Positions 24,599 to 56,802 of a stretch of 64,000 nt of DNA are shown here, one piece after another. The DNA comes from Longimicrobium sp. GTDB taxonomy: Bacteria > Gemmatimonadota > Gemmatimonadetes > Longimicrobiales > Longimicrobiaceae. The stretch's first letter is position 1. Every line of letters begins with the position of its first letter. The notes under the pieces were generated by a model. The model made no database searches. It saw only the letters and a program-made list of their open reading frames with translations, and had not been told where the DNA came from. Location: contig NZ_DATIND010000070.1 in NCBI RefSeq assembly GCF_035474595.1, positions 1 to 64,000 of the forward strand, written 5' to 3'. A program made the translations under genes and the position numbers.

Positions 24599-24660
24599 TC
24601 ACGCGGAGGGAGCCGGGAAAGCGGAGACCTCCTCCGCTTCCTCCGTTCCCTCCGCGTGAT
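24599..24660. repeat. Imperfect palindromic intergenic repeat
   Basis: TCACGCGGAGGGAGCCGGGA...TCCTCCGTTCCCTCCGCGTGA, the most symmetric member of the family. Lies between two minus-strand genes. Confidence 0.75.
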
Positions 24661-40386: not shown

Positions 40387-40421
40387 CGAACCGTTGGTCC
40401 CGTTCCTCCCGGATCGGCTGG

Positions 40422-40484
40422 TCTCACGCGGAGCCGCGGAGGTGTATCCCAGCCACCTCCGCGCCTCCGCGTCTCCGCGTGAGA
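40422..40484. repeat. Imperfect palindromic intergenic repeat
   Basis: TCTCACGCGGAGCCGCGGAG...CTCCGCGTCTCCGCGTGAGA between convergent mgtE and the M13 peptidase; may work as a terminator for both. Confidence 0.75.
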
Positions 40485-40592
40485 TCCAGCGATGCCTGGG
40501 GCGCGGCACTGAAAGTCGAAGGACGGAAAAATGGATCGAGGCGGCGGAGATGCTTCTCCACCGCCTCGATGCCATCTACCGAAAACCCAAGC

Positions 40593-51405: not shown

Positions 51406-54243
51406 CTTCGCTTCTTCCAGCCGCGGCGCGCCCGACAGCGCGGCGCGCACGATGCGCGTCTGCTCGGCGGCGTGGCGGTGCGCGTACCCTTCCGCGGGGC
51501 TGGCGCGCTCGGCCCGGCCCTCGTAGCGCAGCGGAAGCTCGCCCAGCACCTCGCGCAGGCGCGGCTCCACGAAGGTCCACGCGCCCATGTTGCGCGGCTC
51601 CTCCTGCACCCACACCACCTCGCGCACGCCGGGGAAGCGCGCCAGCACCTCGCCGATCTCCTCGGCGGGGAAGGGATACAGCTCCTCCACGCGGGCCACG
51701 GCCACGCGGTCCACCCCCTCGATCGACAGCCGGTCCGCGCGCTGCTCGTCGCCCGTGCCGACCAGGTCCACGTACACCTTGCCGCTGCAGAGGACCAGGC
51801 GCGTCACCTCTTCGCCGCTGCCGCCGAACGGCTGGTCCACCAGCACCGGGTTGAAGGTGCCGGACGCGAGCTGCTCCAGCGTGGACGCGGCGTACGGGTG
51901 GCGGAGCAGGCTCTTGGGGCTCATCACCACCAGCGGGCGCGGCTCGCTTCCCAGGAACGCCGCCTGTCGCCGCAGCAGGTGGAAGAATTGCGCGCTGGTG
52001 GTGGGGTAGACCACGCGCATGTTGTCCTGCGCGCAGAGCTGGAGGTAGCGCTCCAGCCGCGCGCTGGAATGCTCCGGCCCCTGCCCTTCGTAGCCGTGGG
52101 GGAGGAGGAGCGTGAGCCCCGACGTCTGCCCCCACTTCTGGTAGCTGGCGGCCAGGTACTGGTCCACCATCACCTGCGCGCCGTTGGCGAAGTCGCCGAA
52201 CTGCGCCTCCCACAGCACCAGCGCCTGCGGGTCGCGCACCGAGTAGCCGTACTCGAAGCCCACCACCGCCATCTCCGAGAGCGGCGAGTTGTGGATCTCG
52301 AAGCTGGCCGTGGCCTGCGGCAGCGTCTGCAGGGGGTTCAGCCTGGCCCCCGTCTTCGCGTCGTGCAGCACCGCGTGGCGGTGGCTGAAGGTGCCCCGCT
52401 CCGCGTCCTGCCCGGTCAGCCGGATCGGCACGCCCTCGCTGACCAGCGAGGCGAACGCCAGCGCCTCGGCGTGCCCCCAGTCGATGGCCGGCTGGGCGGC
52501 GTCCAGCGCGTCGCGGCGCTTCTGCAGCACGTTCTTGTCGAGTCGCGCGTTGGGCGCGAAGCCCTCCGGCCGCTGCAGCAGCGCCTCGTTCAGCTCGCGC
52601 AGGCGTTCGGCGGCCACGCCGGTCTGCAGCGGGTCGCGGCGGTGCCCCTCGCGCGAATGCTCGTCGTCTTCCTCGTGGTGCGGCGCGCCGCCGCCCAGCG
52701 ACTCCAGCGCGCGGGCCAGCTCGTCGGCCACCGCCTTCGCCATCGCCTCGGCCTCGTCCGCGCTCACCACCCCCTCGTCCACCAGCCGCCTGGCGTACAC
52801 CTCGCGCGCGGTGGGGTGGGTGCGGATGGCCTCGTACATCACCGGCTGGGTGAAGAGCGGCTCGTCGCCCTCGTTGTGCCCCCAGCGCCGGTAGCCCACC
52901 AGGTCGATGACGAAGTCCTTGCCGAAGGTCTCGCGGTAGGCGAAGGCCAGGCGGGTGACGGCCAGGCACGCCTCCACGTCGTCGGCGTTCACGTGCACGA
53001 TGGGGATCTCGAATCCCTTGGCCAGGTCGCTGGCCCAGCGCGTGGAGCGGTCTTCTTCGGGGTCGGTGGTGAAGCCGATCTGGTTGTTGGCGATCACGTG
53101 CAGCGTGCCGCCCACGGCGTAGCCGCGCAGCCCGCTCATGTTCAGCGTCTCGGCCACCGTTCCCTGCCCGGGGAAGGCCGCGTCGCCGTGGATCAGCACC
53201 GCGATGGCCGCGTCGTGGTCCAGCGTGGGCGGGCCCGGGTGCGTGGTGTCGTCCTGCGAGGCGCGCGTCATCCCCACCACCACCGGGTTCACGAACTCCA
53301 GGTGGCTGGGGTTCGGAGACAGGGTGACGCGGATCGGGCGGCCGTCCACCTCGGTCTCCGAATCCCACCCCATGTGGTACTTCACGTCGCCCGACGGCTC
53401 GTCGGTGTTCTGCTGGTCCTCGGCGCCGGGGGCCAGCTGCGCGCTCTGGAAGCCGGCCAGCATCATCGCGTACGGCTTGCCCAGGACGTGGGTGAGCACG
53501 TTCAGGCGGCCGCGGTGCGCCATCCCGATCAGCACCTCGCGCCCGCCCTTTCCGGCGGCCTCGCGCACCACCTCGTCGAGCATGGGAACCATGGCGTCGG
53601 TCCCCTCGATGCTGAAGCGCTTCTGCCCGAAGAAGGTGCGGTGCAGGTAGCGCTCGAAGCCGTCCACCTGGCTCAGCCGGCGGAGGATGTCCTTCCTGCG
53701 CCCGGCCGGCAGCGGCTGGGCGAAGCGGGCCGACTCGATGGCCTCGCGCAGCCAGGCGCGCTCTTCCGCGTTGGGGATGTGGTGGTAGTCGTAGCCCACG
53801 CTCCCGCTGTAGATCTGCCGGAGGCGGCGGACCTCGGCCAGCAGGTTGGGCGAGCGGGGATCGTGGCCCAGCACGACCGCCGCGGGGAGCGACTCCAGCT
53901 CCGCCTCGGTCAGGCCGTAGCTCTCCAGCGCCAGTGCCGGGTCGGGGCGCGGCTCGGAGCCCAGCGGGTCCAGCCGCGCGGCGGTCAGCCCGCGCGTGCG
54001 GATGGTGCGCGACATCTCGCGCGCCGCCACCAGCTTGCGCACGTCGATCCCCGGCGCGGCCGCGCGCGGAGCGGCGCCGGCGGCGGGGGACGAGGAGGCC
54101 GCGGCCTCGAGGTCGGCCGGCGTGAAGCCGCGGAAATATGCCTGCCACTGCGCGTCCACCGACTGCGGATCGCGCAGGTACCGCTCGTACTGCTCCAGCA
54201 CGTAGCCCGCGTTGGGGCCGTGGAACTCGCGGAGATCTGCCAT
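51400..54243 (-). CDS. sucA: 2-oxoglutarate dehydrogenase E1
   Basis: 947 aa, ThDP-dependent TCA-cycle enzyme. N-terminal MADLREFHGPNAGYVLEQYE with DAQWQAYFRGF; central DYHHIPNAEERAWLREAIE; VLIGMAHRGRLNVLTHVLGK; ThDP fold GDAAFPGQGTVAETLNMSGL and NADDVEACLAVTRLA; VDLVGYRRWGHNEGDEPLFT. C-terminal domain VWVQEEPRNMGAWTFVEPRL. ATG 54243 matches the family start. Confidence 0.97.
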   Translation of the reverse strand: MADLREFHGPNAGYVLEQYERYLRDPQSVDAQWQAYFRGFTPADLEAAASSSPAAGAAPRAAAPGIDVRKLVAAREMSRTIRTRGLTAARLDPLGSEPRPDPALALESYGLTEAELESLPAAVVLGHDPRSPNLLAEVRRLRQIYSGSVGYDYHHIPNAEERAWLREAIESARFAQPLPAGRRKDILRRLSQVDGFERYLHRTFFGQKRFSIEGTDAMVPMLDEVVREAAGKGGREVLIGMAHRGRLNVLTHVLGKPYAMMLAGFQSAQLAPGAEDQQNTDEPSGDVKYHMGWDSETEVDGRPIRVTLSPNPSHLEFVNPVVVGMTRASQDDTTHPGPPTLDHDAAIAVLIHGDAAFPGQGTVAETLNMSGLRGYAVGGTLHVIANNQIGFTTDPEEDRSTRWASDLAKGFEIPIVHVNADDVEACLAVTRLAFAYRETFGKDFVIDLVGYRRWGHNEGDEPLFTQPVMYEAIRTHPTAREVYARRLVDEGVVSADEAEAMAKAVADELARALESLGGGAPHHEEDDEHSREGHRRDPLQTGVAAERLRELNEALLQRPEGFAPNARLDKNVLQKRRDALDAAQPAIDWGHAEALAFASLVSEGVPIRLTGQDAERGTFSHRHAVLHDAKTGARLNPLQTLPQATASFEIHNSPLSEMAVVGFEYGYSVRDPQALVLWEAQFGDFANGAQVMVDQYLAASYQKWGQTSGLTLLLPHGYEGQGPEHSSARLERYLQLCAQDNMRVVYPTTSAQFFHLLRRQAAFLGSEPRPLVVMSPKSLLRHPYAASTLEQLASGTFNPVLVDQPFGGSGEEVTRLVLCSGKVYVDLVGTGDEQRADRLSIEGVDRVAVARVEELYPFPAEEIGEVLARFPGVREVVWVQEEPRNMGAWTFVEPRLREVLGELPLRYEGRAERASPAEGYAHRHAAEQTRIVRAALSGAPRLEEAKR

Positions 54244-54483
54244 GGGACGGTTAACCCCTCGTGCGGACGCGCCCTTGCGGGCGCGCCTGAACGCCCGCCT
54301 TCCGACTGCGTTTTCGCGGCGGAAGGCGGACAAAACGCCGTAACTTAATCCGCGCCCGTGCCGCCCGCCACCACGCATCGCAGGCGCGGATGCAACAACC
54401 GGACGCGGGGAGAAGGCACGGACCGGGGGTTGATACACCACTCGGGCGCGGCGGGTCGGGACGCGGATCGGGATGAGGGATAC

Positions 54484-54811
54484 AAAAAGAGAGCGGCGCC
54501 GCGTCTTTCGACGGGCGCCGCCCCACTGGTTCGGTGGTTCCTCTCGAAGGTCTGGTCCTTCGGGCTTCTGGAGAGGCTGTCGCTTCGGGCTTCCGCCCGA
54601 CCCCCGGGTTCACCACCCGGCTCCTCTGGGCCCCGTTCGGCCGGCTTTCGCCCGCCGACGCGGCGCAACAGCAACGTCCTGGGTTTCAGCCCTCCGGTCG
54701 GTCCCACCGACCAGGCGCAGCATCTCCGGCCTTTTCCGCGTGACCCGGCTCTCCTTTCGGTTCGCCGGCGCGGCTCCCGGGCGTCCCCGGAATGACCGTC
54801 GCGCTGCACTG
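54484..54811 (-). ncRNA. Structured non-coding RNA gene, ~328 nt, unclassified
   Basis: On the minus strand a consensus-like promoter (54818-54846) is followed by ~330 nt dense in hairpins with GNRA-type or compact loops (GGTCGGTGGGACCGACC; CGGGCGAAAGCCGG; CCGGGTGGTGAACCCGG; GGGCGGAAGCCC; CTCTC...GAAGG ACCAGA CCTTC GAGAG) and ends in GCGGCGCCCGTCGAAAGACG then CGGCGCCGC with TCTCTTTTTG, a textbook intrinsic terminator (54484-54522). No reading frame fits between. I checked it by eye against RNase P, tmRNA, SRP and 6S RNA signatures and found none. Confidence 0.75.
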
Positions 54812-54817
54812 AAGGCA

Positions 54818-54846
54818 AGGATAGCCACGCCGGCGGAGCCGGTCAA
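54818..54846 (-). promoter_or_regulatory. σ70-type promoter of the structured RNA
   Basis: TTGACC (54846-54841) - 17 bp - TATCCT (54823-54818) on the minus strand; predicted start near 54811. It is among the best promoter matches in the window. Confidence 0.75.
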
Positions 54847-55164
54847 GAGTTTTCTTTCGGGAAGATTTTCACAAGCGTAAGTGCTTGGTATTCCTATCTT
54901 TCGGTTTATCTCGGGTACGGCGGGAATTCGGGATTCTTTGCACCCGCGGTGGCGCATTCCTGCCGCCCGGTTCTCCATCTCCATCACCCCGCCGGAGTTG
55001 CGGAATTCGTACGCGCCGGACGTAGTTCGGCCCGTCCATCCCATCGCTGAAAAATGGATCTTGGGGGAGTGCGCGGCTGCGTCGGAACCGCCCGGATGTA
55101 GACGGACGGGACCCGACTGGTGGCGTAAATCGTGAAGATTGGTTAAATTACGAGGTTTGCATTC

Positions 55165-56730: not shown

Positions 56731-56802
56731 CTCACACGGAGGGAATGGAGGGAACGGAGGACCGCGATGAGCTCTCCGTTTCCTCCGTTCCCTCCGTGTG
56801 AT
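56731..56802. repeat. Imperfect palindromic intergenic repeat
   Basis: CTCACACGGAGGGAATGGAG...CCTCCGTTCCCTCCGTGTGA. Largest member of the family. The rest of the 56619-57096 gap contains the helicase terminator and a GC-rich leader of tamA with no gene seen. Confidence 0.75.

Follow-up and report, generated by a model that had tools for sequence, protein, structure and literature searches.

The window, a 64,000-nucleotide stretch of Longimicrobium DNA, contains a 1.1-kb gap that extends from the start of sucA (54243, minus strand) to the start of a gene encoding a DEAD-box helicase (55356, plus strand), the size given in a preliminary description of this locus. Within the sucA-helicase gap lies a 327-nt unit on the minus strand (54809-54483). 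The preliminary description placed the unit opposite the helicase, which is accurate in that the two are divergent; the unit is not antisense to the helicase gene. The unit and its parts, where "carriers" are the three genomes that have it (the window's genome, G008 and G001), are as follows.

54898-54907, minus strand: AAACCGAAAG element, 52-61 nt upstream of the -35 hexamer, kept in 3/3 carriers
54846-54818, minus strand: sigma-70-type promoter, matched by scan in the window and G008 and by alignment in G001
54809-54483, minus strand: predicted structured non-coding RNA, 327 nt (homologues in G008 and G001, consensus fold z of -9.0, strand asymmetry)
54809-54715, minus strand: 5' domain, with a closing stem and two inner hairpin arms (covariance model R2, consensus fold)
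54714-54526, minus strand: central domain, with a long-range closing helix, a multi-way junction and a GNRA-capped hairpin (single folds, covariance model R1)
54524-54483, minus strand: intrinsic terminator, a GC-rich hairpin followed by TCTTTTTG (pairing probability 0.99-1.0 in three carriers)

The promoter, TTGACC-N17-TATCCT, has a predicted transcription start at 54810-54811 and is the sole promoter-like site found in a scan of the 1.1-kb gap, for which 0.2 sites are expected in shuffled sequence. At the other end of the unit, the terminator hairpin of the window has a mean pairing probability of 0.99 by partition function. A simple terminator scan did not flag this hairpin, we think because of a 1-nt bulge in its stem. 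The claim that the RNA has a promoter and terminator of its own is thus borne out by the promoter scan, by the pairing probability and by conservation of both signals in the carriers. The AAACCGAAAG element is a possible regulator site, a role suggested by its retention in the carriers; most of the upstream DNA around it is not conserved among the three. For genome searches we built two covariance models: R2 represents the 5' domain and spans 54711-54809, and R1 represents the multi-way junction of the central domain and spans 54561-54679.

Conservation and fold of the unit

BLAST searches of 61 related genomes and 10 of the genus identified near-full-length homologues in G008 (85% identity) and G001 (78-79%). 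In the three-carrier alignment, conservation sets in sharply at GTGCAGCG and stops at the T tail. The flanks of the unit have diverged between carriers, and the promoter spacing, the fold and the terminator are kept. Both promoter hexamers are retained in all three carriers at a distance of exactly 17 bases, and the spacer sequence itself has diverged. The G001 promoter, TTGACG-N17-TATACC, was read from the alignment; the promoter scan did not flag it. The G001 terminator is only 46% identical to that of the window, yet it forms a 16-pair hairpin followed by GTTTTG. Between species, the RNA body is 77-87% identical, compared with 70-76% at fourfold sites of the helicase gene. Within the RNA, conservation is 84-90% at paired positions and 64-81% at unpaired ones.

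The stretch 54830-54480 (minus strand) has a folding energy of -191.9 kcal/mol; 100 dinucleotide shuffles average -163.6 ± 5.5 (z of -5.2; 0/100 as good), and the homologous stretches in the two relatives have folding z values of -5.3 and -4.0. A consensus structure computed on a hand-corrected three-way alignment contains 108 pairs, 93 of which hold in all three sequences. Standard pairs occupy 95% of pair cells, a share that falls to 33-44% once the partners are displaced by 1-3 columns. The energy of the consensus is -153.3, against -101.0 ± 5.8 for 200 column shuffles (z of -9.0), all of which it surpasses. As to covariation, one of the checks named in the preliminary description, double-sided changes occur at 10 pairs, within the range of shuffles that were each given their own best fold (5.5 ± 2.1, maximum 12). 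Given these counts and an alignment of three sequences only, covariation is weak on its own and we claim no significance for it.

Individual elements of the fold are also shared. When the three sequences are folded singly, the long-range helix that closes the central domain (54714-54704 with 54537-54526) forms with a probability of ~1.0 in every one, and the GNRA loop of one junction hairpin is kept as GAAA, GAAA and GCAA. The minimum-energy fold of a longer stretch contains an alternative local hairpin, GGUCGGU/ACCGACC, as might be expected of a switch. We dropped this hypothesis because the long-range helix wins, again at ~1.0 in all three sequences, when the RNA is folded with its own ends. 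The fold is specific to one strand: the sense fold of the body contains 28 G-U cells and no A-C cells, whereas the antisense consensus reaches an energy of only -113.1, compared with -153.3 for the sense strand, and holds 12 A-C cells.

Open frames overlap the unit on both strands and GC-rich DNA folds readily, which leaves room for a reading in which there is no RNA gene, only a conserved DNA element or a small protein whose sequence folds merely through GC-richness. We consider this reading very unlikely. Indels of 1-2 nt separate all three pairs of carrier sequences, which argues against a conserved protein or reading frame, and none of the three overlapping minus-strand frames that we tested has a Pfam match. 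The strand asymmetry and the shuffle controls also speak against this reading. The unit is more than a chance fold of GC-rich sequence, and the hairpin-dense structured RNA of the preliminary description is upheld by the shuffles, the consensus fold and the asymmetry between strands. The locus thus has what characterizes an independently transcribed structured ncRNA, namely a conserved promoter, a strand-specific fold and a terminator, with no conserved reading frame. Comparison between the carriers shows a structured unit that is non-coding, strand-specific and conserved, as are its promoter spacing and its terminator; we infer that the unit is transcribed, acts in trans and has a protein partner. 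We conclude that 54809-54483 (minus strand) is very probably a real structured RNA gene.

Distribution and relation to known RNAs

The carriers make up 3/10 congeneric species, in a set that includes incomplete genomes (G007, 76%; G003 and G004, 86%). R1 and R2 both match strongly in the same three of 21 family genomes. Among 395 phylum genomes R1 matches these three alone, and among 154 order genomes R2 matches them and gives one further match of 31.7 bits (L020); model runs on more than 40 genomes used stricter filters, by which weak homologues could be missed. In the seven non-carriers, the sequence upstream of the helicase gene (~0.6-0.9 kb on the contig in G003 and G005) holds nothing similar, and with filters off neither R1 nor R2 exceeded 16 bits in the same regions. 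BLAST found no match to the unit in plasmids and phages, and pattern scans of viral contigs gave 0 and 0 matches. The RNA is therefore confined far more narrowly than the phylum-specific ncRNA envisaged in the preliminary description. In a tree of the helicase protein from the 10 congeners, the three carriers group weakly (67/54), which is compatible with a single recent gain as well as with repeated loss.

Several weak matches were rejected. A pattern scan of GTDB contigs, from which records near the window's own genome were possibly excluded, yielded four matches, none backed by R1 or R2. We judged to be chance the BLAST matches of 34-42 nt in L004 and L005, the short BLAST matches in G000 (the window's genome), G003 and G007, an R1 match of 24 bits in G010 with no adjacent R2 match above 13 bits, and R2 matches of 24-32 bits in G011, G012 and G018 with no adjacent R1 match above 11 bits. 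An opposite-strand frame of 177 aa overlaps L020, the best of these weak matches, which was also judged to be chance.

At gathering scores, none of the 4227 models of Rfam 15 matches the window. At E<=10 there are five matches in the gap, to unrelated families and with scores well short of the cut-off, and the homologous loci in G008 and G001 have only nine sub-threshold matches, again to unrelated families. The 327-nt RNA is similar in length to RNase P RNA and tmRNA and, like them, is multi-domain. It differs in that neither model matches the unit, even at E<=10, and in that the genome has its own copies elsewhere: RNase P RNA (RF00010) at G000:C25 (265 bits) and tmRNA (RF00023) at G000:C145. 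ARAGORN detected no tmRNA in the window. The models for SRP RNA (RF00169, RF01854) and 6S RNA (RF00013) likewise have no match at the unit at E<=10. The earlier statement that RNase P, tmRNA, SRP, 6S and riboswitch signatures are absent agrees with these searches.

The preliminary description also raised a divergent housekeeping RNA. SRP RNA and 6S RNA are the candidates, and what speaks for them is that the Rfam models found neither elsewhere in the genome. This absence is weak evidence because the models missed some of 14 control genomes; the 6S model recovered 5/14, and the SRP models also missed some. A housekeeping RNA that is 78-85% conserved among carriers would not be expected to be missing from 7/10 congeners, and the RNA region has no SRP or 6S match even at the permissive threshold. 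With RNase P RNA and tmRNA located elsewhere, we regard a housekeeping identity as extremely unlikely. SRP and 6S RNA are unaccounted for in this genome, which does not point to the 327-nt RNA.

As a separate observation on G000, which is 96.9% complete, searches with both bacterial SRP RNA models (small and large) and with the 6S model gave no match. The copies may be divergent or lie in assembly gaps, or the search may have reached its limits.

Like OLE, ROOL, GOLLD and the raiA motif, the last of which we take to be a stand-alone structured ncRNA of poorly understood function, the 327-nt RNA is free-standing and highly structured, with no obvious reading frame. It differs from these RNAs in having no Rfam match, in being single copy and in its occurrence in three species of one genus, whereas they are widespread or phage-borne. 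It is also shorter than ROOL (659 nt) and GOLLD (>800 nt) as described in an account that calls the functions of OLE, ROOL and GOLLD poorly understood (PMC12286853). A full-text literature search returned no description of the 327-nt RNA in the titles and abstract openings among the matches listed. The RNA is very probably an undescribed, genus-restricted structured RNA gene.

Neighbouring genes and possible modes of action

The preliminary description held that the unit is not upstream of a same-strand gene. This does not stand: in the window, sucA lies ~240 nt downstream of the terminator on the same strand, followed by sucB and lpd, and sucA is downstream of the unit in G008 as well. In G001, the downstream gene encodes a Big_2-domain protein, and the 19.5 kb that we read do not include sucA. 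The helicase gene, present in 10/10 congeners, is 2.4 kb from the unit in G001 in the same divergent orientation, with two frames between them, one of which encodes a beta-lactamase-family protein. The unit is oriented away from the helicase gene in 3/3 carriers. In four congeners without the RNA, sucA adjoins the helicase gene.

One possibility is that the RNA acts in cis on the sucA-sucB-lpd operon, as its leader or attenuator. Its promoter, structured body and terminator, with a same-strand gene beyond them in the window and G008, resemble riboswitch and attenuator leaders. The differences are that the downstream gene is not conserved and that neither antiterminator pairing nor an Rfam riboswitch match was found: the 5' arm of the terminator pairs with the body at 0.01, 0.20 and 0.09 in the three carriers, not above shuffled arms. 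Because another gene lies downstream in G001, the unit has been retained there independently of sucA. A TAAGTT block near sucA is common to the window, G008 and the four RNA-less congeners; because species without the RNA share it, sucA probably has a promoter of its own. A cis role is disfavoured, and a leader or attenuator of this operon seems to us quite improbable.

The intergenic DNA of the window and its relatives has other features. Immediately ahead of sucA (54243-54345), the window and G008 share a conserved strong hairpin, CCGCCTTCCG...CGGAAGGCGG, which is a possible sucA leader element. In the four RNA-less congeners (loci L040, L064, L065 and L066), the DNA that immediately precedes the helicase gene is conserved and hairpin-rich; it may be a control element in the helicase 5' UTR. 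The sucA-helicase gap of G006 (L065) contains an apparent inserted frame that, by sequence reading, resembles a HigA-type antitoxin. Closely spaced inverted repeats with purine-rich arms like TCACGCGGAGG...CGGAG occur in the window at 56732-56801, 24599-24659, 802-859 and 40397-40509, and G004 and G008 have similar repeats between sucA and the helicase gene; together they resemble a family of palindromes dispersed through intergenic DNA.

We propose that transcription would begin at the sigma-70-type promoter near 54810 on the minus strand and stop at the intrinsic terminator ahead of sucA. The resulting 327-nt RNA would fold into a 5' domain and a central multi-way-junction domain closed by the long-range helix. 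Most likely it would then act in trans through its shape, either as a structured decoy or within a ribonucleoprotein, whose RNA component it would be; the RNA would most likely bind protein and would not serve as a leader for the gene that follows. Two findings suggest action in trans via the fold: conservation is higher at paired than at unpaired positions, and the unit persists in G001, where a different gene lies downstream. We give about an even chance to a stand-alone ncRNA, with its own promoter and terminator, that acts in trans through its folded shape, likely as a ribonucleoprotein or decoy.

Alternatively, and this is the main rival, the RNA may regulate targets in trans by base pairing. 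The 16-nt stretch CCUCUCCAGAAGCCCG is invariant in the three species, and its AGAAGC part is mostly unpaired in the folds of the three sequences, which makes it a candidate seed; its CUCUCC part resembles, in our reading, an anti-Shine-Dalgarno sequence. The partly single-stranded CCUCUCCAGAAGCCCG could thus pair with the ribosome-binding sites of targets, and the remainder of the RNA would be a stabilising scaffold. Unpaired positions overall are, however, less conserved than paired ones, unlike those of a seed-type sRNA, and we consider base pairing rather unlikely. We place very little credence in a third scheme, a CsrA/RsmA sponge whose loops would present GGA motifs. The three sequences contain 12, 11 and 14 GGA motifs, but their composition predicts ~9.4-10.0 ± 2.5, no more than 4-5 in each sequence are accessible, and the fold is a multi-way junction and not a row of short hairpins.

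The RNA may represent a young class of large RNAs that depend on their shape, a ribonucleoprotein core or even a ribozyme with a GNRA-capped multi-way junction, that arose inside a single genus. This idea is possible though doubtful. It would mean 327 nt of structured RNA that has its own promoter and terminator and lacks any detectable ancestor elsewhere.

The sharp borders of the unit make it directly testable. Comparative RNA pipelines are reported to favour low-GC genomes (PMC11109978), and the 327-nt RNA points to GC-rich groups, which such pipelines have examined less. Large structured ncRNAs are usually found through being widespread. An RNA of this kind that is limited to a few species of one genus would show that the gain or loss of complex RNA genes can be rapid.
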